Below the pieces are notes generated by a model. The model ran no database searches and was not told where the DNA came from. It saw nothing but the letters and a program-made list of their open reading frames with translations. The translations under genes and the position numbers were made by a program. This document shows positions 1 through 10,284 of a stretch of DNA of 37,521 nucleotides, in pieces. Origin of the DNA: a virus; the IMG/VR virus record IMGVR_UViG_3300042876_001009, positions 1 to 37,521 of that record, one strand, 5' to 3'. Position 1 is the first letter of the stretch. The number at the start of each line of letters is the position of its first letter.

Positions 1-120
1 GGCGTGGCGCGCCTGCTCATCACGCTCATCGTCGACTCGATGGAACTCGCCCGCGCATACGACACGCGCGTCACGCCGGACATCATCACCGCGGTCGTGC
101 AGGAGCGGGGCCTGTCATGA
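1..120 (+). CDS. C-terminal end of an early protein, possibly the transposition AAA ATPase
   Basis: The window opens inside an open frame that reads 39 residues to a TGA at 118-120. The visible tail (RLLITLIVDSMELARAYD, then TPDIITAVVQERG) is helical and looks like the C-terminal lid region of an AAA ATPase. In Mu-like phages the MuB-type target-selection ATPase is encoded upstream of GemA, so that is the best guess from position. No catalytic motif is in view. The stop overlaps the next start in an ATGA arrangement, which indicates translational coupling within the early operon. Confidence 0.4.
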   Translation, partial: GVARLLITLIVDSMELARAYDTRVTPDIITAVVQERGLS

Positions 121-569
121 TGATCACGCCGGCGCAGGTGCGCCAGATCCACGTGCTCACGTCCAAGCTCCGGCTTGATGACGACGCGTACCGTGCGCTG
201 CTCGCCGCGCACGGCGTGACGTCGAGCAAGAACCTCTCGAAGTCCGAGGCGATCGTCCTCATCGACCGGCTCACGACGCAGGCGGTCGACGCCGGCGTGT
301 GGGTGCGGCCCGTCGGGCGCAGCAAACGCGAGCGCATCGGTCGCGGCAGCGCCCGGTGGCAGAACGAGATGGCGACGCCGGCGCAGGTGAACATGCTCGA
401 AGCGATGTGGAGCCAGGTCACGCGTGCGACGACTCTTGAGAGCAGGCGCATCGCCTTCGACCGATTCATCCACAAACGGTTTCATCGGGGCGGGCTCATG
501 ATGGTCGAGATGGTGCTGGTCGAGAAGATCGTCCGCGCCCTCGAGGCCATGGGAGCGGAGAAGGACTGA
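117..569 (+). CDS. gemA: GemA-like early regulatory protein (Mu gp16, DUF1018)
   Basis: The 150-aa product begins MMITPAQVRQIHVLTSKLRL and continues with a DDDAYRALLAAHGV segment and a SSKNLSKSEAIVLIDRLT segment. This is the pattern of the Mu gp16/GemA family: an N-terminal helix, a 'dd.YRalL' motif and an 'S...Lt..ea..vi..L' helix. A second 'TPAQVNMLEAMWSQV' segment near residue 88 partly echoes the first. In Mu, GemA is an early protein that affects host gene expression and DNA topology; its exact role here is unknown. The start overlaps the preceding stop, and a second in-frame ATG at 120 is equally possible. Confidence 0.88.
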   Translation: MMITPAQVRQIHVLTSKLRLDDDAYRALLAAHGVTSSKNLSKSEAIVLIDRLTTQAVDAGVWVRPVGRSKRERIGRGSARWQNEMATPAQVNMLEAMWSQVTRATTLESRRIAFDRFIHKRFHRGGLMMVEMVLVEKIVRALEAMGAEKD

Positions 570-570
570 C

Positions 571-675
571 ATGCAGCACGTCATCTCAATCCTGATCCCT
601 GTGATCATTCTCCTCGCCTATTACTACGAGGACGTGCGCTCTACCCCACAATTCAAGAACAGGAGGAATCTGTGA
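571..675 (+). CDS. 34-aa single-span membrane micropeptide
   Basis: ATG at 571 opens a 34-aa frame. Residues 3-19 are a run of hydrophobic residues (HVISILIPVIILLAYYY), followed by a short charged tail ending FKNRRNL. The shape fits an N-out or N-in single-span membrane peptide of the kind found in phage early operons. It starts one base after the gemA stop and its last four bases overlap the GTG of the next gene, so it lies cleanly within the operon. No family is recognised. The support is composition and fit between neighbours only. Confidence 0.55.
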   Translation: MQHVISILIPVIILLAYYYEDVRSTPQFKNRRNL

Positions 676-1064
676 ACGGAGTAACCCCCGGTGGCCGGGT
701 GAGCATCTCGCCCGTCTACCTGCTCTCGACGCCGGCCGACCTGGTCGCGTGGATCGAGGCGGAAGTCGCATCCCGCGTCCAGCGCCTGCGGACCGACCCC
801 ACGGTAAGCACGCACGACCTTATCGCATGGGGCCGGGCGCACGACGTCATGAAGCTCATGCGCATGCTCGCCGCGCTCGATCCCTCGATGAACATCCACA
901 ACCCGCGTGAGTTCCTCGACGCGGTGCGCGAACAGACCCTATTTACCACTGAAATGATGACCGAATACAAGGCCCTTTCACAGCGCCTGCACGAAGCGGA
1001 AGCCGAGCTCGCCGTGCTGCGCGGGGCCGTCCCGACCAACCATACACCGGAGTATGCACCATGA
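672..1064 (+). CDS. Hypothetical early phage protein, helical
   Basis: A GTG at 672 follows an AGGAGG-like site at 660-666 and opens a 130-aa frame. The protein is mostly helical. A central stretch is rich in Met and Leu (DVMKLMRMLAALDPSMN), and the C-terminal third (YKALSQRLHEAEAELAVLRG) is a likely coiled coil. The stop overlaps the next ATG (ATGA). I do not recognise the family. A DNA- or protein-binding accessory role is possible, but nothing in the sequence decides it. Confidence 0.7.
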   Translation: MNGVTPGGRVSISPVYLLSTPADLVAWIEAEVASRVQRLRTDPTVSTHDLIAWGRAHDVMKLMRMLAALDPSMNIHNPREFLDAVREQTLFTTEMMTEYKALSQRLHEAEAELAVLRGAVPTNHTPEYAP

Positions 1065-1501
1065 ATAATTTCAAACCATTTCCCGTTCCGTGCGGTTGCA
1101 TCAAGACATTCTTGGAGCAGTACCATGCGAACCTGTTGACGAAAGGATGCACGGAAATCGATGTGTCGTTCGATGACTTCATCAACACAGTTGATCCAGC
1201 TGATCTCGGTGGTGATTACTTGACGCTCGGCAATCGCGTCAAGCTGTCATACATCAGCGCGATCGTGAACCCTGCGACTGGCAGGAAGAAACAGCAGAAG
1301 AAGTCATCGACGATCGTCTGGGCGTGGCGCTACTGTCCCTACTGCGGAGCCAAGATGAACACTGCGCACGTCGAATTAGAGTCGACCGACGTGCAGCCGT
1401 CATTTGTGCCTCGGCCCATCGGTAGAGATCTCGCATCCGACGAAGCGCGTCCCTACGACGGACAGACGCGCCGTGCACAGGGAGAGGAGGTGCAGTCATG
1501 A
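1061..1501 (+). CDS. Hypothetical early protein with a zinc-ribbon-like CPYCG motif
   Basis: The 146-aa product has Cys residues near the N-terminus (PCGCIKTF) and a clear knuckle WRYCPYCGAKM at about residues 90-100. Together these could form a zinc ribbon. The segment between them has mixed alpha/beta character, and the last 40 residues look disordered and charged. The ATG overlaps the previous stop and the stop overlaps the next ATG. Small zinc-ribbon proteins are common in phage early regions, often without known function. Base composition here is lower in GC than its neighbours, which suggests separate acquisition. Confidence 0.7.
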   Translation: MNNFKPFPVPCGCIKTFLEQYHANLLTKGCTEIDVSFDDFINTVDPADLGGDYLTLGNRVKLSYISAIVNPATGRKKQQKKSSTIVWAWRYCPYCGAKMNTAHVELESTDVQPSFVPRPIGRDLASDEARPYDGQTRRAQGEEVQS

Positions 1502-1827
1502 AGTTCACCTTCACGAATGATCAGCTCGCCATCCTCGCGTCATGCGAGGGTGGAGCGGATGTATACGGCTTCGCAGATGCACTATTTCTCAGAGGACTTC
1601 ATCAGACTCGCTGCGGTTTTGTCCGCATCGTCAAAGCTCGCTACGCACCGAAGAATGGCGCCGAACGGCAGCCGTATTTCGGTTGCATCCTGACGAGAAA
1701 AGGTCGGGATGTGCTTGCCATTCTGATGCGTGGAGGAGGAGGAGGGAGTGTTCCTCGATCGAGGCGCTGGGCCCAACCAGGAGACGACGAGTCTGATCTA
1801 TTCATGCGTGCGGAGGAGCCGTCGTGA
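1498..1827 (+). CDS. Hypothetical small early protein, winged-helix-like N-terminus
   Basis: A GGAGGT site just ahead of 1498 supports this start. The 109-aa product begins MKFTFTNDQLAILASCEGGA. Its middle ends in a PYFGCILTRKGRDVLAILM segment that resembles the last helix and wing of a small winged-helix fold, and a Gly-rich, disordered tail follows. It could be a DNA-binding protein, but no family is recognised. The stop overlaps the GTG of the following micropeptide gene. Confidence 0.6.
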   Translation: MKFTFTNDQLAILASCEGGADVYGFADALFLRGLHQTRCGFVRIVKARYAPKNGAERQPYFGCILTRKGRDVLAILMRGGGGGSVPRSRRWAQPGDDESDLFMRAEEPS

Positions 1828-1940
1828 AAAACCTGTCGGACGAATTTCTCAGCACGCTCGTTTCAGGTGCCATCGTGGTCGGAATCATGATCGCGATCGT
1901 TGCGATCGTCATGTCGCTGACCGGCTGGTGGGTGAAATGA
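1824..1940 (+). CDS. 38-aa single-span membrane micropeptide
   Basis: GTG at 1824 overlaps the preceding stop. The peptide has a polar N-terminus (MKNLSDEFLSTLVSG) and then one hydrophobic span (AIVVGIMIAIVAIVMSLTGWW) ending in a lysine. This is the second of three such peptides in the early operon. Its TGA overlaps the next ATG. No family is recognised. Confidence 0.55.
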   Translation: MKNLSDEFLSTLVSGAIVVGIMIAIVAIVMSLTGWWVK

Positions 1941-2272
1941 TGAACGCGCACGAACGCACACCCGGATGGTGCCAGATGGTTTCCGGGGAAGAGAACCGGT
2001 TGAACGTCCCGGGGCTGAATATCAGTCGCACGCCGAACTGGACATGCGAGGAACGGCTTTCGAATCGGCGGATGCGTGTCCTCATCTTCACCGACGGCGT
2101 CCTCATCGAGTTCCGCACGCTCGTGGACCGACGTACGCGTCTGTTCTACCGCAACCGCCTTGTGCTCTCGCGCGAAGCGGCCGTCCTGCTCCAGGATGCG
2201 CTGCTCCGATCAGCACGCGAGATGCTGGCCCGGGACCTGAGACAGGCGAAACAGATGGCGGAGGCAGCGTGA
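1937..2272 (+). CDS. Hypothetical early protein
   Basis: The frame is open further upstream, but the ATG at 1937 overlaps the micropeptide stop and gives a 111-aa product. That matches the coupled layout of the operon, so it is the preferred start. The protein has a beta-rich middle (RRMRVLIFTDGVLIEFRTLV) followed by two amphipathic helices rich in Arg, Leu and Ala. A single-domain DNA- or RNA-associated protein is conceivable, but there is no recognisable motif. Its stop overlaps the next start. Confidence 0.6.
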   Translation: MMNAHERTPGWCQMVSGEENRLNVPGLNISRTPNWTCEERLSNRRMRVLIFTDGVLIEFRTLVDRRTRLFYRNRLVLSREAAVLLQDALLRSAREMLARDLRQAKQMAEAA

Positions 2273-2394
2273 TGATCCTGCTCGCAGTACTCGTCATCGT
2301 CATCGCAGGCTGGATCAACCACATCTATCTCTGCCCCGCATATCGGAACATCCTGCGCGGTGTCCATGGAGATCCCGACGAGGAGATCTCATGA
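2272..2394 (+). CDS. 40-aa membrane micropeptide
   Basis: ATG at 2272 (a GTG one codon earlier is an alternative) opens a peptide with an N-terminal span MILLAVLVIVIAGWINHIYL and an acidic C-terminus (GDPDEEIS). It is the third membrane micropeptide of the early operon and overlaps both neighbouring genes. No family is recognised. Confidence 0.55.
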   Translation: MILLAVLVIVIAGWINHIYLCPAYRNILRGVHGDPDEEIS

Positions 2395-2618
2395 CACACG
2401 CCCCAGCCCCCGACCTATTCGACGTGATCAAAGCCCGCCAGCGCGTGCCACTTCTGCGGTACGAAGTGCGTGCACTGTTCGGCACCACCAGCACCGTGGG
2501 CATGCCCTGCGAGACCAAGGCGGATGCGCGACATGCGCTCCGCGCATCGCGTTCCCTCGTCTCGTGCACGTCCGCCGCCGTGTACGATGTCTGGGCCGGC
2601 ATGGAAATCGAGGTGTAA
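2391..2618 (+). CDS. Hypothetical small early protein
   Basis: The 75-aa product starts at an ATG overlapping the preceding stop. It contains a basic helical middle (DVIKARQRVPLLRYEVRALF) and a C-terminal segment SCTSAAVYDVWAGMEIEV. No domain is recognised. It is kept because it fits between neighbours in the coupled operon and no competing frame is better placed. Confidence 0.5.
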   Translation: MTHAPAPDLFDVIKARQRVPLLRYEVRALFGTTSTVGMPCETKADARHALRASRSLVSCTSAAVYDVWAGMEIEV

Positions 2619-2620
2619 CC

Positions 2621-2800
2621 ATGCCAGAATTCATCACGAAAGACGACGTACTCCGCACGCTGCATGTGTTCGCCAACAGCGAGGCGCAGGAACGCGAGTT
2701 GTCTGAAGGTCTGCGTGACTTCCTGCGAGATCTCGCCGCACTCAAAGACAATTCCGTGGAAGATCTCGTGCGCGGAGAGGAGGCCCTCGGCCATGCGTGA
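2621..2800 (+). CDS. Hypothetical 59-aa early protein
   Basis: ATG at 2621 begins two bases after the previous stop. The peptide is acidic and helical throughout (TLHVFANSEAQERELSEGLR, then SVEDLVRGEEAL). No family is recognised. Its end overlaps the next gene by eight bases. Confidence 0.5.
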   Translation: MPEFITKDDVLRTLHVFANSEAQERELSEGLRDFLRDLAALKDNSVEDLVRGEEALGHA

Positions 2801-3023
2801 GCAGCTCGACCTCTTCCCCGATCTCCCTGTCAACCCGCACCTTATCAATCCGATGGTGCGTACGCACGGTCCCGGCCCTGCCGGGCGCACCTGCCGAGAC
2901 TGCCAGCACGCGTTCGTATGGGTGCCGTGCCCATCGTGGATGCGCTGCGAAGGGTCGCGCAATGGATACGTCATCGCTGTGCGCAAAACCTATCCTGCCT
3001 GTGCCCGCTTCAACGAACGATGA
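2793..3023 (+). CDS. Small Cys-rich, probable zinc-binding phage protein
   Basis: ATG at 2793 opens a 76-aa frame. The second half has TCRDCQHAFVWVPC, then MRCEGSR and YPACARF. This CxxCxH...C...C...C spacing is typical of the small zinc-knuckle proteins often found in early and accessory regions of phages. The N-terminus has a MREQLDLFPDL segment that resembles a short interaction motif. The function is unknown. Confidence 0.6.
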   Translation: MREQLDLFPDLPVNPHLINPMVRTHGPGPAGRTCRDCQHAFVWVPCPSWMRCEGSRNGYVIAVRKTYPACARFNER

Positions 3024-3079
3024 CACGCGCAGTGCCATCGCATCACCTGTTCCCGACATCATTCATCAGGAGATACATC

Positions 3080-3553
3080 ATGTCGCAACACCGATCCACC
3101 GAACAGCTCGTCGCCATCGGTCTCGAGCTCACCACCCAGCGCCAGCTCATCGATCTGCAGCTTCACGAGGTGCGGCGGGAACTGGACGGGCGCTTCCCCG
3201 GCGTCAAGACGCAGGAGGAGATCTCAACGAAGAAGGGGCGCGCTGTCCGCATGGTGCGTCACGAGTACTGGATCGCGCCCGGCAAGCTCGGCGATGTTCG
3301 CCGCATCCTCGGCACCGCGTATGCGCACCTGCTCGATCCCGAACAGCCCCTCGTCGTCACGCCGCGGCTGCGCGCGCTTTCAAAGGACGAGCGCAGCGAT
3401 GTCGGCCGGCTCCTCCGGCCGTACATCAAGGTTGACCGACGGATACGAATCAGCTTCCGTGCGCCTCTCTCTGCGCTCGTCGTGACCGACGGTGTCGAAA
3501 GCCAGGTCGTCGACTTTGAAACCCTCTTCTCCGGGGACGGCCATGGCCATTGA
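3080..3553 (+). CDS. Hypothetical early protein, 157 aa
   Basis: The start is set at 3080 because AGGAG at 3069-3073 lies seven bases upstream. An ATG at 3020 overlapping the previous stop would add 20 poorly structured residues. The N-terminal third is helical (STEQLVAIGLELTTQRQLID). The centre is basic and mixed (STKKGRAVRMVRHEYWIAPG), and the C-terminus is beta-rich. No family is recognised. The position just before Gam suggests a role in DNA metabolism during transposition, but that is only context. Confidence 0.65.
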   Translation: MSQHRSTEQLVAIGLELTTQRQLIDLQLHEVRRELDGRFPGVKTQEEISTKKGRAVRMVRHEYWIAPGKLGDVRRILGTAYAHLLDPEQPLVVTPRLRALSKDERSDVGRLLRPYIKVDRRIRISFRAPLSALVVTDGVESQVVDFETLFSGDGHGH

Positions 3554-3857
3554 ATCCGTCGAGCAGGCGCTCGCCGATCCCGGTGCCAGCCAGACTGGCG
3601 AGCGCGAGCAGGCCCTTGTCGACCGCCGCCTCCGTCCGATCGTGCTGGGCTTCTGCCGGCTCCATCTCTTCGATGAATTTCACATGCGCGACCTGGTCGA
3701 ATACGTCAACGCGCGTCTCTCCAGCGCACCGGAGAGCGCCGGCCGCATCCTGCGTCTGCTGCGCACCGACGGTGTCGTCGACTTTGACGTGGTCAACCGG
3801 CGCCAGTCCCTCTACGTCATCCGTTCCGTGCACACCCAACATCCATCCAACCCATAG
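3543..3857 (+). CDS. Hypothetical protein, winged-helix-like
   Basis: ATG at 3543 overlaps the end of the previous gene. The 104-aa product has a helix (RRLRPIVLGFCRLHLFDEF), a second helix (HMRDLVEYVNAR), a third (SAGRILRLLRTDG) and a beta hairpin (VVDFDVVNRRQSLYVIRSV). This order is what a winged helix-turn-helix domain would give. A regulatory or replication-accessory role is possible. No family name can be assigned with confidence. Confidence 0.65.
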   Translation: MAIESVEQALADPGASQTGEREQALVDRRLRPIVLGFCRLHLFDEFHMRDLVEYVNARLSSAPESAGRILRLLRTDGVVDFDVVNRRQSLYVIRSVHTQHPSNP

Positions 3858-3864
3858 GCCCATC

Positions 3865-4389
3865 ATGGCACGCAAACTGAACCAGAAATCCACGCTCCAG
3901 ACAACCGACGACGCCACCGCCTGCATGCGCGAGCTGAAGGAGGTCACCATCGAGCTCGGCCGCATTCAGGCGGAGGCCGATGAGGCGCGTCTGAACATCG
4001 AGAAGAAGATCGAGGAGCTCGTCTCCCCGCTTGCAGAGCGGAAACTCACCCTCGAGCAGAATCTCAAACTGTTCTCTCTTGAGAACCGCAGCCTCTTCAC
4101 CGAGACGCGCAAAGTGAAAACACCGTTCGGCAGCTACGGCTTCCATCTCATGCCGCCATCGGTGGTCTCGATCATGAAGCGCATCGCCGACAACATCGCC
4201 TCGATGAAGGCCGGCGGCAAGCGGTACACGCGATTCATCAAGGTGAAGGAGGATCTCGACCGTGCCGGCATCAAGGCCGCCGTCGACGCGGGCGAACTCT
4301 CGCCGGCGGATCTCTCGGCCATCGGTCTGGCCATCCGGTCGGAGGAAGAGTTCGTCTACCACATCGATTCGCAGGAACTGGGCGTGTAA
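3865..4389 (+). CDS. gam: Mu Gam-like host-nuclease inhibitor
   Basis: The 174-aa product matches the Mu Gam family in length and layout. A long N-terminal coiled coil (about residues 20-75, rich in Glu and Lys) leads into the diagnostic segment TRKVKTPFGSYGFHLMPP and then a helical C-terminus with VKEDLDRAGIKAAVDAG. Mu Gam is a Ku-like dimer that threads linear DNA ends and shields them from exonucleases. Here it should protect infecting DNA or transposition intermediates. The next gene's ATG overlaps the stop (TAATG). Confidence 0.92.
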   Translation: MARKLNQKSTLQTTDDATACMRELKEVTIELGRIQAEADEARLNIEKKIEELVSPLAERKLTLEQNLKLFSLENRSLFTETRKVKTPFGSYGFHLMPPSVVSIMKRIADNIASMKAGGKRYTRFIKVKEDLDRAGIKAAVDAGELSPADLSAIGLAIRSEEEFVYHIDSQELGV

Positions 4390-4613
4390 TGAACACCCAG
4401 TGCCTCAACTGCAACGCGATCCGCACTGTGGCCGCACTGCGCGGCTCCAGTGCGGTCGCAATGTTCGGCTGCGCGATGGCCGCGACGGATCGCTGCTGGA
4501 CGCACCTCATGCACGGAGCGCGTCTTATCTGCTTCGAGCCACGGCAGGGCGAGCATGTCATGATCGAAGAACCACAGGACGCGCGCAGCGCGGAGGCGAC
4601 CCATGGGCATTGA
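4389..4613 (+). CDS. Hypothetical small Cys-containing protein
   Basis: The 74-aa product begins MNTQCLNCNAIRTV, a single CxxC knuckle, followed by a short hydrophobic Ala-rich stretch and an acidic tail. Its start overlaps the gam stop and its end overlaps the next gene by eleven bases. No family is recognised. Confidence 0.5.
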   Translation: MNTQCLNCNAIRTVAALRGSSAVAMFGCAMAATDRCWTHLMHGARLICFEPRQGEHVMIEEPQDARSAEATHGH

Positions 4614-5202
4614 AGACCAGTTGGCATTCATCGATTCCCTGCTCTGGAACATCCAGGGCGTGCTCGAAAACCTCGGCAAACCCGATGCGACGTTCCGTGA
4701 GCCTGCCGTGCACGCGTTCCTGCACCAGCGGCGCATCACGCGCGTGCCTCGAACCGCATTCCGTGAGTATGAACGGTCGGAACTGCAGCGCGCGATCGCG
4801 CTTCTGAGCCGGATCCACACGAACTACAAGGTTCAGTGGCGGAAGCTGTGCGAGCAGAATGCGCAGGAACGCGACGAGCGCCGTCGGCGTGAGCAGCTGC
4901 TGCGCGAGGAGTGCTACTCGTGGGATGCGATGCTCGCGTGGATGAAGGAACACGCCCACGGACAGAAACCGGCCGAGCTGTTCACGTTCGAGGGTGCCAT
5001 CGGTCGCGAGAACTACTTTCGTCTGCGTGCGCAGGCGATCCGGCTCTACACGCTGCGCGAGGCGGAGGATTTCGTGGCGACGCACAACACGTTGAACACA
5101 CCGATTGGTGTGCTCGATGCGTTCGACGTCGTCGCCATGCCGGAATTTGGAGGCACGTACTACGCGCCGCGCTTCACCACCACCATCAGGCAGGGATACT
5201 GA
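4603..5202 (+). CDS. Hypothetical early protein, 199 aa
   Basis: The 199-aa product is strongly helical and charged in the centre (SELQRAIALLSRIHTNYKVQ and a following RDERRRREQLLREE stretch). Its C-terminus is less regular and rich in aromatic residues (PEFGGTYYAPRFTTTIRQGY). It lies between gam and the mor-like gene, where Mu-like phages carry variable small genes. No domain is recognised. Confidence 0.65.
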   Translation: MGIEDQLAFIDSLLWNIQGVLENLGKPDATFREPAVHAFLHQRRITRVPRTAFREYERSELQRAIALLSRIHTNYKVQWRKLCEQNAQERDERRRREQLLREECYSWDAMLAWMKEHAHGQKPAELFTFEGAIGRENYFRLRAQAIRLYTLREAEDFVATHNTLNTPIGVLDAFDVVAMPEFGGTYYAPRFTTTIRQGY

Positions 5203-5204
5203 AC

Positions 5205-5531
5205 ATGATCGCACCGGAGTTGTGGTCGGAAATCACACCGGAGGACCTCGCAGCGTCCCCGGACATGCGCCTCATCTGCGAAAATCTCGGTCCAGAGACG
5301 CTGATGCGCCTTATGGAACTCATCGGGAAGACGTATCTGTACCTCGGCGAGAACAACCTGATGCCGTTCAAGGAGCGGTTCATCATGCAAAACAAGACAC
5401 GCTACACCCCAAAGGAATTTGCACGGAAGCTGGGACTTTCCGAGAATCGCGTGTTGTCCACGCTGCGGGAACATGGCGGCGTGCATGATCCAAAACAAAT
5501 GGACATTTTCGCTTCTTCTCAGTCAACCTAA
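5205..5531 (+). CDS. mor: Mor-family transcription activator (middle gene activator)
   Basis: The 108-aa product shows the Mor/C family order. An N-terminal dimerisation part has LICENLGPETLMRLMELIG followed by a short beta strand (KTYLYLGEN). A C-terminal helix-turn-helix follows (TPKEFARKLGLSENRVLSTL). Mor of Mu binds the middle promoter and recruits RNA polymerase. This gene is the last of the early operon, as in Mu, and no second family member (C) is visible in the window. Either this protein drives all later transcription or another activator is used. The ATG at 5205 lies two bases after the previous stop. Confidence 0.82.
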   Translation: MIAPELWSEITPEDLAASPDMRLICENLGPETLMRLMELIGKTYLYLGENNLMPFKERFIMQNKTRYTPKEFARKLGLSENRVLSTLREHGGVHDPKQMDIFASSQST

Positions 5532-5536
5532 CGACG

Positions 5537-5565
5537 TTGTTTTCGATGTTTAGATCCAGTAGATT
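5537..5565 (+). promoter_or_regulatory. Putative sigma70-type promoter for the structured RNA
   Basis: TTGTTT at 5537-5542 and TAGATT at 5560-5565 are separated by 17 bp. The expected transcription start, about seven bases downstream, coincides with G5572, the first base of the long terminal stem of the RNA described next. The boxes match consensus only moderately; the register with the RNA end is the main support. Confidence 0.4.
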
Positions 5566-5571
5566 CACACC

Positions 5572-5709
5572 GTCTACCCAACGCTACATGCCGGCGTGTC
5601 CCACATCGGGGCCGTCGGCATTTTCATGCCTCGACCTTCGGTCGAGTCTCCGGGATCCGCGAGGACCGGGCTTAACGCATGTAGCGTTGGTAGACAGGCT
5701 CGACCTTTT
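5572..5709 (+). ncRNA. Candidate structured RNA: multi-hairpin domain closed by a 19-bp stem
   Basis: GTCTACCCAACGCTACATGC (5572-5591) pairs with GCATGTAGCGTTGGTAGAC (5677-5695) with one bulged C. Inside are successive hairpins. GTCCC/GGGGC is at 5598-5602 and 5608-5612. GGCAT-TTTC-ATGCC is at 5617-5630. CTCGAC-CTTCG-GTCGAG is at 5630-5646. CCGG...TCC-GCGA-GGA-CCGG, with a GNRA-type loop, is at 5650-5669. A second CTCGACC at 5699-5705, followed by TTTT, could pair with GGTCGAG at 5640-5646 instead of the local partner, giving a possible alternative fold. No good reading frame fits this stretch. It lies between mor and a terminator that precedes a small membrane protein gene. Confidence 0.6.
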
Positions 5710-5739
5710 CTCTGTCACCCAGACAACTACACACCCACG

Positions 5740-5777
5740 GCGAGCAGCACGCGAATTTCGTGTGCTGCTCGCTTTTC
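5740..5777 (+). terminator. Intrinsic terminator ahead of the 61-aa membrane protein gene
   Basis: GCGAGCAGCAC (5740-5750) pairs perfectly with GTGCTGCTCGC (5762-5772). The loop can close further, and TTTT follows at 5773-5776. It ends only about 28 bases before the next start codon, so it can end early or RNA transcripts and also attenuate the following gene. Confidence 0.8.
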
Positions 5778-5805
5778 ATTTGAGCCCCTCACAACCGGAG
5801 TGACT

Positions 5806-5991
5806 ATGTACAAGAGCATCATTCGTCCAGCGCTTCTCGCAGTGGCCATCCTTATGATCCTCGCGACAATACTGCGTCTTTTCAATCACATTGCATCTCA
5901 GACTGACATCGGGATGGTGCTGGTGTCGGTAGCATTTATCGGTCTGGTCTATATCCTCGACGTTCGCCAAGCACGAAAACGGCTTGTCTGA
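5806..5991 (+). CDS. Small two-span membrane protein, possibly holin-like or exclusion-type
   Basis: The 61-aa product has two hydrophobic segments: about residues 6-24 (IRPALLAVAILMILATIL) and about 35-52 (IGMVLVSVAFIGLVYIL). A basic tail follows (DVRQARKRLV). GGAG at 5796-5799 supports the start. It is isolated between two terminators, behind the structured leader. In Mu the lysis gene follows the activator C, so a lysis-related role is possible. Superinfection exclusion is an alternative. No family is recognised. Confidence 0.6.
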   Translation: MYKSIIRPALLAVAILMILATILRLFNHIASQTDIGMVLVSVAFIGLVYILDVRQARKRLV

Positions 5992-6017
5992 TATACCGCA
6001 TATCGACGAACCCCAAG

Positions 6018-6050
6018 CGCGCCACAGATGCTCTCTGTGGCGCGTTTGTT
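6018..6050 (+). terminator. Intrinsic terminator T1
   Basis: CGCGCCACAGA (6018-6028) pairs perfectly with TCTGTGGCGCG (6034-6044) across the loop TGCTC, followed by TTTGTTT. About 40 bp around this hairpin recur almost unchanged at 9186-9228, beyond the restriction island. Confidence 0.85.
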
Positions 6051-6153
6051 TCATGGCTGACCCGATCTCCCACCCTCGCGCGATCGTGCCTCACAGGCCC
6101 GTTTCTGTGGCTCTGGCGCGCCCCCCTGAATCCGCCCCTCCCGCAACGCACAA

Positions 6154-6173
6154 CGCCGGCATCAATGCCGGCG
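6154..6173. terminator. Perfect hairpin downstream of the minus-strand gene
   Basis: CGCCGGCAT (6154-6162) and ATGCCGGCG (6165-6173) form a 9-bp stem with a two-base loop. It lies 25 bases past the stop of the minus-strand gene at 6199-6492, in the right place for its terminator. The following T-run on the minus strand is weak (TTGTGCGTT). Confidence 0.4.
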
Positions 6174-6198
6174 CTGTGTGTTCCTCCGCGGTTGTGCG

Positions 6199-6492
6199 TC
6201 ATCTTCTTCTGGTCGACCAGATGTTGCGCGTCTGGCGCCGGCGGGCGGCGATCTCGAACATCTGCTGGGCCCGGCCGGATGCGAGCGCTTCCTTCTCGCC
6301 GCGGATCAACACATCGAATCCGGTGCCCTCCTCGTTGAGACCGAGCATCTCGCGCAGGGACCGGACCAGATCCGGGATGTCCTGCGTGAGAACGTCGACG
6401 CTGGCCACCTGGACCAGCTCGGCGAGTGCGGCATGGAGGTGGTTGTGGGCGCGTTCGAGGTGCTGGTAGCGGGCGGCGGCGGTGGTGATCAT
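6199..6492 (-). CDS. Hypothetical helical protein of the restriction island
   Basis: The ATG at 6492 is chosen because AGGA lies nine bases upstream; a longer frame reaches 6633. The 97-aa product is helical: AARYQHLERAHNHLHAALAE, then VDVLTQDIPDLVRSLREMLG, then a basic end (AARRRQTRNIWSTRRR). It is divergent from the zinc-ribbon gene and shares the intergenic region with the palindromic promoter. That is a common position for a regulator, but no DNA-binding motif is evident and the family is unknown. Confidence 0.5.
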   Translation of the reverse strand: MITTAAARYQHLERAHNHLHAALAELVQVASVDVLTQDIPDLVRSLREMLGLNEEGTGFDVLIRGEKEALASGRAQQMFEIAARRRQTRNIWSTRRR

Positions 6493-6581
6493 GGCGATTC
6501 CTGTCGGGTTGGTGATGCTCAATGCTTGTCCCCAACGTGCGATCGTGCCATCTGCAGATGCAAGAGGATTCGGGTTGAATG

Positions 6582-6631
6582 GATACTTGACTCCACCTCC
6601 GCCCCTGCCTATATTGGTGGAGTTAAGTATC
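6582..6631 (+). promoter_or_regulatory. Strong sigma70-like promoter inside a 16-bp inverted repeat (probable operator)
   Basis: TTGACT (6587-6592) and TATATT (6610-6615) are spaced by exactly 17 bp. Outer arms GATACTTGACTCCACC (6582-6597) and GGTGGAGTTAAGTATC (6616-6631) are inverted repeats with one mismatch. The arms cover the -35 box and the probable start site, so a dimeric protein bound here would directly control RNA polymerase. The promoter points toward the gene at 6650, whose leader would be about 28 bases. Confidence 0.65.
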
Positions 6632-6649
6632 AATCATCCTGCTCCATCG

Positions 6650-7123
6650 ATGTCCTCAGACCAATCCTCGCTGACAATGCTGGCCTCCGAGGAGGAGTGC
6701 ATTTGCCATCTGGAGAAAATCCGTTGGCCGAGTGGTGTGATTTGTCCTAAATGTGGGAGCAAGAGACGATTCAGTCGCCTGTCCCGGGGCCTTCTGTTCA
6801 GATGCGGTGACTGCAATACTGATTTCTCTGTACGGAAGGGGACGATTTTCGAAGACAGCCACCTGCCCCTATCGAAGTGGTTCGCAGCGATCGAGATTAT
6901 TACGGCAGTCGGGACTCTGCCATCTTCGAGTGCGCTTGCGCAACGGATTGGTGTCTCAAGGAAAACTGCCAGCGCGATGCTGGAAAAACTCGAGGCTGTC
7001 GTTCGGTTTACAGCCCGTCCGCATCAAATGGTTTTTGATCAGCGTCCCATGCGTAGTCGCGTTCATGGACCAAGTGCTGCAGGCATTTCATCGTCGGCAT
7101 CCTCGTCCTCTCATCCTGCGTAG
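6650..7123 (+). CDS. Truncated IS1595-type protein: zinc ribbon plus HTH, no DDE domain
   Basis: The 157-aa product has a zinc ribbon with Cys pairs at residues 32/35 (CPKCG) and 52/55 (CGDC), followed by the IS1595 signature segment DFSVRKGTIFEDSHLPLSKW. A helix-turn-helix-like part comes next (SALAQRIGVSRKTASAMLEK). IS1595-family transposases continue into an ISXO2-like catalytic domain of about 150 residues. Here the frame drifts into a low-complexity Ser-rich tail and stops. The catalytic part is not found in the other two frames downstream. It is either a decayed insertion-sequence fragment or a domesticated DNA-binding regulator of the adjacent restriction genes. The palindromic promoter just upstream favours the latter, as inference. 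Confidence 0.6.
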   Translation: MSSDQSSLTMLASEEECICHLEKIRWPSGVICPKCGSKRRFSRLSRGLLFRCGDCNTDFSVRKGTIFEDSHLPLSKWFAAIEIITAVGTLPSSSALAQRIGVSRKTASAMLEKLEAVVRFTARPHQMVFDQRPMRSRVHGPSAAGISSSASSSSHPA

Positions 7124-7221
7124 ACGTTGTCGCTAATAGAGGAACATTTCGGTGGTCTTCAGTCATCCGATGCACGCGACCTGCTGACACTCTCATACAC
7201 GAATTGAAAAAATCCTCTCTC

Positions 7222-8040
7222 ATGAGCGGCGCCGCATATCAACTCAATCTCACTGCAGACACTTTGCTGAAGGCAGCTACGGAATATCCAGCCGAGCAGG
7301 CACTGAGACCTTGGCTTGGGAAGGTCAATCATGGTGACTGTCTGGAAATCATGCAGAAGTTCCCGCCAAAATCCGTAGGATTGATCATCACGAGCCCGCC
7401 GTACAATTTGAAGAACAGTTCCGGCAACGGAATGAAGGACGGCCGCGGCGGCAAGTGGATGAATGCCAAGCTCATCAACGGGTACGAATCTCATGAAGAC
7501 ACGATGCCACATGAGGAGTACGTTGAATGGCAGCGTGACTGTCTGGCTGGGATGATGCGAGTCTTGCGCGAAGACGGAGCCATTTTTTACAACCACAAGT
7601 GGCGGGTTCAAAGAGGCCTGCTGCAGGACAGATCGGACATAGTTCGAGATTTCCCAGTGCGACAGATCATCATCTGGAAACGCAGCGGCGGCATCAATTT
7701 TAATCCTGGCTATTTCCTGCCGACGTACGAGGTGATTTACCTCATCTGTAAACCCAAATTCGAACTCGCACCTCGTGCGAACGCTATCGGTGATGTGTGG
7801 ATGATTCCGCAGGAGATGAACAATCCGCATCCTGCACCGTTCCCTGTCGAGCTCGCTCAGAGATGCATCGAGGCGACAACGGCCAGAGTGGTCCTCGATC
7901 CATTTATCGGCTCTGGATCGACCGCCATCGCAGCGGAGGGTTGCAATAGGCAATGGATCGGAATAGACAACTCGGCTGAGTACTGCACGATGGCCACCGA
8001 CCGTATCAATACAGCAAGACAACATCTCAAGCGAACATGA
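7222..8040 (+). CDS. Beta-class site-specific DNA methyltransferase (N4-cytosine or N6-adenine)
   Basis: The 272-aa product has the catalytic motif TSPPYN at residues 57-62, before the AdoMet-binding motif DPFIGSGST at 226-234. This is the beta-class order used by many N4-cytosine and N6-adenine enzymes. The serine in SPPY is common among N4-cytosine methyltransferases. Other supports are VNHGDCLEIM before the catalytic motif and IWKRSGGINFN in the middle. Its stop overlaps the start of the endonuclease gene by four bases, so it should be the protective half of a type II system. ATG 7222 is preferred; TTG 7204 would add six residues. GC content is lower than in the phage structural genes. Confidence 0.9.
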   Translation: MSGAAYQLNLTADTLLKAATEYPAEQALRPWLGKVNHGDCLEIMQKFPPKSVGLIITSPPYNLKNSSGNGMKDGRGGKWMNAKLINGYESHEDTMPHEEYVEWQRDCLAGMMRVLREDGAIFYNHKWRVQRGLLQDRSDIVRDFPVRQIIIWKRSGGINFNPGYFLPTYEVIYLICKPKFELAPRANAIGDVWMIPQEMNNPHPAPFPVELAQRCIEATTARVVLDPFIGSGSTAIAAEGCNRQWIGIDNSAEYCTMATDRINTARQHLKRT

Positions 8041-8753
8041 CCATCGAACGCCCAACCCCTCCGAAGACAATGAAAGAGCTGTTCGCGCGGCTCAATCAGA
8101 TCATCCAGCACGGTGAATATGTAATGCCGGCCTCGTATCGAGGGACCGGAGCCCCGGGGCTCTTTCTCGAGGATCTGCTCGGTTTGCCGAACACCAACAA
8201 GGACACTCCTGACGCGGGTGAATGGGAAATCAAGTACTACACGCGAAAGACAGCGCTCATCACCTTGTTTCACAAGGAGCCGAGCCCGCGCGACGTCGTC
8301 CGATTCATGGTCAGCAAATGGGGCTGGCGGGATGATGACGGTCGCATGTGCTTCCGACACACTATTCGCGGGAAGTCGAAGGATTTCTACATCGATTCAG
8401 ACGCAGAGCAGGTCATCGTTCGTCGTATCGGCGGGAACGGCCTCGTTCCCCATTGGACGCACGACGATCTCCTGAGTATTGCCGGCGGAAAATTACGTCG
8501 ACTTCTGCTCGTCCGCGGAGAACGTGGAAGCGGGAAACGTGCCCAGAGAGTGATCTATGATCGGGTGGATCTTTATCAAAACCTCCAGTTGACATATTTC
8601 ATCGCAGAAGTGCTCAATGGCACCGTGGCAATCGATTTTGATGCTCGGGAGGCACGACCGGATAGCCAAGCGCTGCGAAACCATGGTACGAAGTTCCGAA
8701 TTCAGCCAGAGAATATCTGTCGCCTCTACGCTCGCAAGGAGCGTATCGGTTAA
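8037..8753 (+). CDS. MvaI/BcnI-family type II restriction endonuclease
   Basis: The 238-aa product equals the length usual for this family. The N-terminal half has GTGAPGLFLEDLLGLPNT (about residues 36-53), matching the family's 'G..G.PG..LE.LLG...N' segment. It is followed by PDAGEWEIKYY (58-68), which supplies the PD...ExK catalytic residues D59, E64 and K66. Known members MvaI and BcnI are monomeric enzymes that cut CCWGG and CCSGG; the sequence cut here cannot be read from the protein. The overlapping methyltransferase gene gives strong context. Confidence 0.85.
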   Translation: MTIERPTPPKTMKELFARLNQIIQHGEYVMPASYRGTGAPGLFLEDLLGLPNTNKDTPDAGEWEIKYYTRKTALITLFHKEPSPRDVVRFMVSKWGWRDDDGRMCFRHTIRGKSKDFYIDSDAEQVIVRRIGGNGLVPHWTHDDLLSIAGGKLRRLLLVRGERGSGKRAQRVIYDRVDLYQNLQLTYFIAEVLNGTVAIDFDAREARPDSQALRNHGTKFRIQPENICRLYARKERIG

Positions 8754-8777
8754 CCGCCACGATCCCTTGGAGGAGAT

Positions 8778-9107
8778 ATGAACCTGTGGTCCGATGATGA
8801 TCTGATCCTAGTGCTGGAGTTCTTTTTCAAATGCCCCGAACATCTGCATACCGACGGGCATCCGTGTTGTCAATCCTTCGCAGGTCTGCTCCAACGATCC
8901 CCTGGTGCGTTGGACAAGCTCCTGAGGAACATTAAAAGCGTTGTCACCAACAGCGCCGGACTTCCACATGCATCGGCAAAGGTCCGATCCTTGGTGGCGA
9001 GATTTGGCACCAATCTGCCGCAGTTGTATGCTTCCGCCATCGGCATACGGGCGGCACGTGGATGGCCTCCACTCGATTGCTGCGGTGAGATCTCCGCTCC
9101 TTCGTGA
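8778..9107 (+). CDS. Restriction-island small protein with a 'WSDDDL' domain
   Basis: A strong GGAGGAG (8767-8773) precedes the ATG. The 109-aa product starts MNLWSDDDLILVLEFFFKCP. It contains SPGALDKLLRNIKSV and GLPHASAKVRSL segments. This is the order of the small helical N-terminal module seen in many HNH-type restriction endonucleases (W.ree...a..ly...p; R.p.sv..kl.N; gl..as). Here it stands alone without a nuclease domain. It may be an accessory or specificity subunit of the system, or a remnant. The family link is from memory of the motif and was not searched. Confidence 0.6.
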   Translation: MNLWSDDDLILVLEFFFKCPEHLHTDGHPCCQSFAGLLQRSPGALDKLLRNIKSVVTNSAGLPHASAKVRSLVARFGTNLPQLYASAIGIRAARGWPPLDCCGEISAPS

Positions 9108-9185
9108 CGTACGCCGATCGATCGCATGGAACCCAGAGCGTGGGATCTCAATTCGGCTCATTGGAGCTGCTCACGCCCCAGACAT

Positions 9186-9222
9186 CAGCGCGCCACAGAT
9201 GCATTCTGTGGCGCGCTGTTTT
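9186..9222 (+). terminator. Intrinsic terminator T2, near-copy of T1
   Basis: CAGCGCGCCACAGA (9186-9199) pairs with TCTGTGGCGCGCTG (9205-9218) in a perfect 14-bp stem with loop TGCAT, followed by TTTTG. It ends the plus-strand restriction operon. The shared core with T1, including the downstream TGGCTG, makes these a direct repeat flanking the island. Confidence 0.87.
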
Positions 9223-9294
9223 GTGGCTGGCGGAATTTGTGCCTCCGACCGCTGGTCGGGGCGTGGCAGCCCATTTTTCCGCGATTCACGACGT

Positions 9295-9660
9295 TCAGTC
9301 GTCCATCCGCTCGAAATTCGCGAGGAACCGTTCGAGACACATGCTGTCGTCGAGACTCTTCCTGTTCCCGTCGGCATCCGATGGGAAAAAGTGGACATAG
9401 ACATGCGGACAGCACGCGACCCCATGCGAAAATTGCGGATAGTCGCTGACCAGCACGTAATCGATCGTGACCATCGAACCACGGGCCTGCTTCGGCATCC
9501 AGACATCTCCTGGCATGACGTTGAAATGCCGGCAGACGGAGGCATGGATCTCGTTTGACAGATTGCCGAGTTCGTGGGTGATCTGTACGCGCTGATGATG
9601 GAGAGGTACCATCAGCCGCATGTTGTTCATCACGTCGATCGGGTACTCAAGGGGTTTCAT
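9295..9660 (-). CDS. Hypothetical protein at the end of the minus-strand head operon
   Basis: The 121-aa product starts MKPLEYPIDVMNNMRLMVPL after an AGGAG nine bases upstream. It contains helical and aromatic-rich parts (HQRVQITHELGNLSNEIHAS; VTIDYVLVSDYPQFSHG; CCPHVYVHFFPSD). The low GC content and the lack of a head-protein motif make a cargo or regulatory role as likely as a structural one. It is the last gene transcribed on this strand before the terminator region. No family is recognised. Confidence 0.6.
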   Translation of the reverse strand: MKPLEYPIDVMNNMRLMVPLHHQRVQITHELGNLSNEIHASVCRHFNVMPGDVWMPKQARGSMVTIDYVLVSDYPQFSHGVACCPHVYVHFFPSDADGNRKSLDDSMCLERFLANFERMDD

Positions 9661-9690
9661 ATGGACTCCTGCTGTTGGATTGAGGATGTG

Positions 9691-10284
9691 TTACGCACTG
9701 CCGAGGAGGATCTCACCGATGGCTTCGATGTCCTCGTCTTGGATGACCAGATACGGCCGCGCATCGATGTGAATGACGTGCGGCTTGGTGTATTTCACAT
9801 CGGCGCGTTCCGATTCCGACATGGCCGCGACCTTCGCCTTCGAGACGAACTGCGCGCGCCCGCCGACGATGATGTAGGGTGTGCCTCCGGGGTGCTGGAT
9901 GTCCCCGCCGAACTGATGGATGGCCGAGTACACCATGCCGGCGCGCAGCACGAGCCCGTCGCCTTCGACGGCGTACGAGATGCTTTTGGCCAGCAGGCCT
10001 GAGTCCACAAGCGTCAACCCTCCGCTGCGTTTCCTGAAGCGTCCGCTGCTGTCGCGGCCACCTGGCGTTTCCTCTTTCGTGGCCTTGGTGGGCACCCACT
10101 TCTGTGTGCCGCCGGTGAACTCGCCGTTCCCGATCGACATGTACCGGCCGCCGACCTGGAAGTTCTCATCGATCGAGGTGAGGAGTAGTTCGCCGATTTC
10201 TGGCAGATGCGAGCCGACGTCCGGTACCGCGCGCCGCACCACATCCTGCAGGCCGGCATCATCGAAGGCGAGTAGTTCGTCCAT
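9691..10284 (-). CDS. Mu gpG-like virion morphogenesis (tail completion) protein
   Basis: The 197-aa product follows the phage virion morphogenesis family (Mu gpG / P2 gpS). An N-terminal helix (LPEIGELLLTSIDENFQ) leads to LTLVDSGLLAKSISYAV, then MVYSAIHQFGGDIQ, and a C-terminal ARPYLVIQDEDIEAIGEIL. The 'LvdsG.L..Si', 'ya.iHQfGg' and 'aRPfL....eD...i' motifs are the hallmarks of the family. It probably acts at the head-tail joint. In Mu, G directly precedes the protease gene I; here I lies about 6 kb away on the opposite strand because the module is inverted. Confidence 0.88.
   Translation of the reverse strand: MDELLAFDDAGLQDVVRRAVPDVGSHLPEIGELLLTSIDENFQVGGRYMSIGNGEFTGGTQKWVPTKATKEETPGGRDSSGRFRKRSGGLTLVDSGLLAKSISYAVEGDGLVLRAGMVYSAIHQFGGDIQHPGGTPYIIVGGRAQFVSKAKVAAMSESERADVKYTKPHVIHIDARPYLVIQDEDIEAIGEILLGSA

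Follow-up and report, generated by a model that had tools for sequence, protein, structure and literature searches.

A highly stable predicted RNA fold between mor and a small membrane protein gene in a putative B3/Mu-type transposable phage

The 37,521 bases of IMG/VR virus record IMGVR_UViG_3300042876_001009, the stretch of phage DNA analysed here and called the window below, hold a five-helix RNA fold shortly behind the late activator gene mor (positions 5570–5698, + strand). The fold is real and lies far beyond chance. We read it as an orphan noncoding RNA of the phage: a small RNA that belongs to the mor transcription unit, ends at a terminator and is perhaps trimmed by RNase III. We put the probability of this reading at roughly 0.45. 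The reading draws on the strength and rarity of the fold, the noncoding character of the interval, the strong terminator directly behind it, the G-U pairs and GNRA loop found on the + strand, and the lack of a built-in antiterminator or a helix that blocks the ribosome binding site (RBS). The RNA is notable for its unusual stability and for its position at a hinge in the regulation of a transposable phage. Should it be transcribed, the switch of Mu-like phages from early to late expression would gain a step that involves RNA.

Genomic context

Judged by its gene content the window is a B3/Mu-type transposable phage, since it encodes GemA (PF06252, E 3.2e-13), Gam (PHROG 491, E 8e-22), a Mor/C-like activator, Mu-type head-assembly genes (PF05069, E 3e-9) and a terminase with 41% identity to that of Pseudomonas phage B3; these matches bear out the Mu-like setting that the initial annotation of this DNA had suggested. 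The early genes lie on the + strand and run through to mor (5205–5531, + strand), which encodes a 108-aa Mor/C-like late transcription activator (PHROG 836, “late transcriptional activator”, E 7e-7), and the head genes, on the − strand, extend from about 16.4 kb down to 9.7 kb. The two blocks are separated by the RNA, the gene for a 61-aa membrane protein, a truncated IS1595-like open reading frame (ORF) and a type II restriction-modification pair. The window begins at gemA and appears truncated on that side. The early operon (117–5531) is oriented towards the head genes and is inverted relative to the closest relative (L201–L203); in that relative and in phage B3 it runs towards the end of the contig or genome.

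The region downstream of the membrane protein gene has several features of its own. The ORF at 6482–7123 carries an IS1595-type zinc ribbon and covers no more than the beginning of the transposase domain (about 50 of 215 positions), and may represent either a decayed transposase or a DNA-binding protein put to new use. It adjoins, just ahead of it, the restriction-modification pair (7204–8753), which consists of an N4/N6 methylase and an MvaI/BcnI-family endonuclease; one 513-position methylase model in PADLOC matches the methylase with its first half and the endonuclease with its second. A terminator-like hairpin is present in two copies that are 86% identical and in direct orientation (6016–6051 and 9187–9222). 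The copies lie on either side of the restriction-modification genes and the IS1595-like ORF, as though this cassette had arrived with or through a duplicated terminator.

Structure and stability of the RNA

The body of the RNA consists of a closing stem, P1, and four hairpins. The core of P1 pairs 5572–5578 with 5689–5695 and 5580–5591 with 5677–5688, giving the 19 pairs and one bulge that the initial annotation had described, where the bulged extra C can be placed at 5577, 5578 or 5579. Pairing of 5570–5571 with 5697–5698 across a bulged A5696 extends the stem to 21 pairs with two single-base bulges. All four inner hairpins that had been proposed were also predicted on the + strand: P2 (5592–5617), P3 (5618–5629, GGCAT-TTTC-ATGCC, with a TTTC loop), P4 (5630–5646, CTCGACC-TTC-GGTCGAG) and P5 (5649–5670), which is capped by a GCGA tetraloop of the GNRA type. 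The outermost pair of P3 competes with P2, and extending P3 to 5617 comes at the cost of P2. No bases separate P1, P2, P3 and P4 from one another, two precede P5, and six follow before P1 closes. A single fold dominates, with pair probabilities at or near 1 for P1 and P4, which points to a stable body rather than a switch. When growing prefixes of the transcript were folded, P4 had already formed by position 5647 and was retained in all later prefixes tested.

The predicted energy of 5570–5700 (131 nt) is −72.1 kcal/mol as compared with a mean of −46.1 (sd 4.1) for dinucleotide shuffles (z −6.34), and none of 200 shuffles matched the native fold. Perfect inverted repeats of at least 14 bp with a gap of 45–170 occur just once in the window, as the 14-bp core of P1; of 150 random windows generated from a second-order Markov model, 6 contained such a repeat. 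A chance fold of GC-rich intergenic DNA could draw on this last count, on the fact that a single sequence offers no covariation, and on a stretch of the window (9140–9290) that is about equally structured. We regard such an origin as hardly credible given the z-score and the shuffles, together with a 21-pair stem that encloses four perfect hairpins and has a terminator behind it. A GC-regressed scan of both strands placed the RNA among the top sites, with 9140–9290 as the strongest, at a step of 20 bases that misses the best register of the RNA. The 9140–9290 site is intergenic, lies between the converging restriction genes and head operon, and folds at −74.6 kcal/mol in 130 nt through a stem, GGAGCTGCTCACGCCCC / GGGGCGTGGCAGCCC, around a terminator-like hairpin and a second hairpin.

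Both strands of the mor-proximal element fold nearly equally well (−71.7 and −68.8 kcal/mol), and the + strand is slightly favoured by its three G-U pairs and the GCGA loop. This near symmetry, along with the fact that P1 amounts to a near-perfect 21-bp terminal inverted repeat, would also suit an element acting at the level of DNA, such as a miniature mobile element with its inverted repeats, or a site for recombination or protein binding, in which folding of the RNA is incidental. We consider this very unlikely: four internal hairpins and a GNRA loop would not be expected of it, the element occurs as a single copy in the window, its flanks (5560–5571 and 5696–5707) are unrelated and show no target-site duplication, and the arms were not found in this context in the other phages searched.

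Terminator and downstream gene

An intrinsic terminator follows the RNA body (5739–5780, + strand), as had been noted from the sequence; the terminator scan gave a 16-pair stem at 5739–5773, with 10 G-C pairs and −30.6 kcal/mol, and then the T-rich tail TTTTCATTT. The ATG of the 61-aa gene (5806–5991, + strand, stop included) lies 28 nt past the terminator, with a Shine-Dalgarno GGAG (5797–5800) five bases ahead of it, in agreement with the membrane gene and ribosome site of the initial annotation. The frame score of this ORF is +0.14, as opposed to −0.55 and −0.61 in the other + frames, where known genes score 0.43 ± 0.33 and off-frame sequence −0.49 ± 0.30, which makes the ORF coding-like. 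The 210 bases upstream of it in the same frame lack a coding score, indicating that the RNA interval is noncoding. The product is hydrophobic and, from two hydrophobic stretches judged by eye, probably a two-helix membrane protein; searches of Pfam, PHROG and PADLOC and a protein scan gave no family match for it.

Promoter and alternative folds

Transcription of the RNA had been proposed to start at the first base of the closing stem from a promoter just upstream. The putative promoter there (TTGTTT-17-TAGATT, 5537–5565, + strand) is weak and did not hold up, with a consensus score of 7 of 12 that is at chance level and below the threshold of the promoter scan, which returned no match at this place. 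Scores of 7 or more are attainable at 4.9% of all window positions, so the fact that the expected start falls on the first base of P1 means little. Mor-dependent promoters, as established for Pm of phage Mu, do not need a good −35 box, and for this reason the RNA may still have a promoter here; a Mor-site motif common to the RNA region and the divergent late region was sought and none was found. An independent small RNA would be expected to carry its own promoter and terminator, and of these the terminator is present and the promoter is at chance level.

The same findings bear on whether the whole element is simply the 3′ end of the mor operon, made up of a 3′ UTR that stabilises and insulates and a terminator, which together would end early transcription and shield the mor mRNA from exonucleases, with no separate function of the RNA and with the 61-aa gene belonging to the next unit. 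The mor gene ends 38 bases ahead of P1, the strong stem and terminator follow in the same direction, the promoter is unsupported, and in several relatives the next gene lies directly behind mor. We think this unlikely, as the terminator would be sufficient by itself, five abutting helices are more elaborate than such a role requires, and the next gene would then be without a promoter of its own.

The initial annotation favoured a riboswitch or attenuator, and the order on which it relied, a structured RNA followed by a terminator and a gene, is indeed present. A cis-acting attenuator leader, in which binding of a phage or host protein or of a small molecule to the RNA would set terminator readthrough and hence the level of the 61-aa membrane protein, is doubtful in our view and is nonetheless a serious rival. 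Besides the order of RNA, terminator, Shine-Dalgarno and coding-like ORF, the 28 nt between terminator and ATG leave little room for another promoter. The two exclusive folds that had been suggested were examined through GGTCGAG (5640–5646), which can pair with 5699–5705 as claimed; the best structure containing this helix reaches −57.4 kcal/mol rather than −72.8 kcal/mol, 15.4 kcal/mol worse, and the closing stem P1 must dissolve for it to form. A pseudoknot that joins the same segments with P1 intact was considered and rejected as sterically implausible, on the reasoning that the linker has just a few bases and the helix two turns.

A stable antiterminator was likewise not found. Between the RNA body and the 5′ arm of the terminator there is no helix of at least 7 pairs, and the best has 6 pairs, one of them G-U. 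While the terminator is still incomplete, a transient structure around 5698–5704/5737–5744 could form (−10.1 kcal/mol for 5696–5756) and delay it, but the completed terminator outcompetes this structure by more than 20 kcal/mol. The RBS could pair with CTTCGGT (5636–5642) or CTCCGG (5648–5653), both of which lie largely within P4 or P5; no strong sequestering helix was found and the RBS is not specially paired. Antisense pairing to the RBS was also sought and not found: 82% of window segments form a stronger duplex with the RNA than the start region does. A terminator and an RBS element do lie between the RNA and the ORF (5739–5773 and 5797–5800, with the ATG at 5806). The expression platform that defines a riboswitch or attenuator, two exclusive structures that control a terminator or a hidden RBS, was absent when tested, and so we do not class the RNA as a riboswitch. 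A protein-dependent form of attenuation that needs no built-in platform is compatible with these results. An independent small RNA, which the initial annotation had given as its alternative, fits them at least as well as the riboswitch or attenuator does.

Relatives and homologue searches

About 170 related loci were gathered by terminase and capsid scans. The closest relative is IMGVR_UViG_3300021189_000088, with 63% identity in the terminase, 53% in the capsid and many more homologues. Its early operon runs the opposite way and its contig stops shortly past the homologue of the window ORF at 4389–4613, and mor was not found in it. Beyond gemA it has large early ORFs that, by position alone, take the place of the transposase genes. 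Mor identity in the other relatives is merely 24–36%.

A covariance model built from the single RNA sequence, which matches itself at 157.8 bits, found nothing above noise in the related loci (best 17.2 bits, E 2) and no homologue in 42 whole virus records or, across several phyla that carry related prophages, in about 1,470 genomes; stricter filters applied in searches of more than 40 genomes. Searches with blastn against phage and plasmid collections returned no homologue, exact and gapped stem patterns in IMG/VR contigs gave matches that do not fold like the RNA, and scans with Mor and the 61-aa protein yielded no homologue of the RNA locus. These searches show that the RNA has no close homologue within the collections searched; wider absence is not proven. 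The case also shows that a very strong single-sequence fold can be left without detectable relatives, so that its function has to be learned by experiment or with the help of genomes sampled anew.

One relative has a structured stretch after mor (L106, 1308–1424, − strand; z −4.4) that was considered as a counterpart and set aside, as the covariance model did not match it. Its inner part is unstable, its centroid structure is a plain long hairpin, and it contains terminator-like hairpins and is followed by an antirepressor-like gene, named by eye. An 18-base stem pattern taken from it matched only unrelated sequence in other phages, and at best the stretch is an analogue. In a scan of about 1.3 Mb of relatives for multibranch stems, the cases inspected either lay in coding regions or were simple repeat arrays. 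A separate observation in a related phage is an array of GTCCACTCCT-like repeats (L051, 6206–6340) that forms a hairpin of −58 to −62 kcal/mol between oppositely oriented gene blocks.

Proposed role

If the small-RNA reading is correct, we infer that 5570–5698 would be transcribed on the + strand, starting at a promoter close upstream that is Mor-activated or weak, or else arriving by readthrough from mor, and that the transcript would fold into the P1-closed body and stop at about 5774–5780, giving an RNA of about 205 nt. RNase III may then trim the two-turn P1 stem to leave about 129 nt, and the stable body could act as a trans-acting or protein-binding small RNA, with the 61-aa membrane gene expressed solely by terminator readthrough. 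Against the small-RNA reading stand the chance-level promoter, the lack of a homologue and hence of covariation, and the lack of a target, pairing to the downstream RBS region being weaker than to 82% of window segments; in addition, where a terminator precedes an ORF by 28 nt and this ORF has a good Shine-Dalgarno, control of the ORF is the more natural reading. More speculatively, and decidedly unlikely on present evidence, the RNA could belong to a new class of phage RNA, compact and built on a five-way junction, that is confined to a lineage of transposable phages with poor sampling. Such an RNA would regulate the early-to-late switch with Mor or serve to decoy an RNA-binding protein of the host.

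Comparison with known systems

As the initial annotation had anticipated, no known RNA family was recognised: Rfam 15 gave no matches in the window, where the best sub-threshold match on the + strand reached 14.4 bits against a cutoff of 45, and ARAGORN found no tRNA or tmRNA genes. Few descriptions exist of small or leader RNAs in transposable phages, and among the titles and abstracts of the open-access literature we found no paper on an RNA adjoining mor. The mor regions of Pseudomonas phage B3 and Sinorhizobium phage StopSmel share homologues of GemA, Mor, terminase and portal with the window; mor lies at the genome end in B3 and is separated from the lysozyme gene by just 117 bp in StopSmel, and neither has an annotated RNA.

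Type III toxin-antitoxin loci (ToxIN, CptIN and TenpIN) likewise place an RNA and a terminator before a short ORF, but the locus described here has no tandem repeats (5300–9700) and no ToxN/CptN/TenpN-type endoribonuclease, and a small membrane protein stands in place of the latter. Attenuation leaders and riboswitches have the same succession of structured RNA, terminator, Shine-Dalgarno and ORF, and the RNA differs from them in its want of an alternative pairing between body and terminator, of an Rfam match and of a second fold of comparable energy. The phage small RNAs OOP of lambda and C4 antisense RNA of P1/P7 (RF01695) are also small, structured, terminator-ended and near regulatory genes. 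The RNA differs from these in having no family match, including no covariance match to RF01695 at E up to 10, and no antisense partner was found for it. We have therefore filed it as an orphan within the broad kind of phage structured noncoding RNA.
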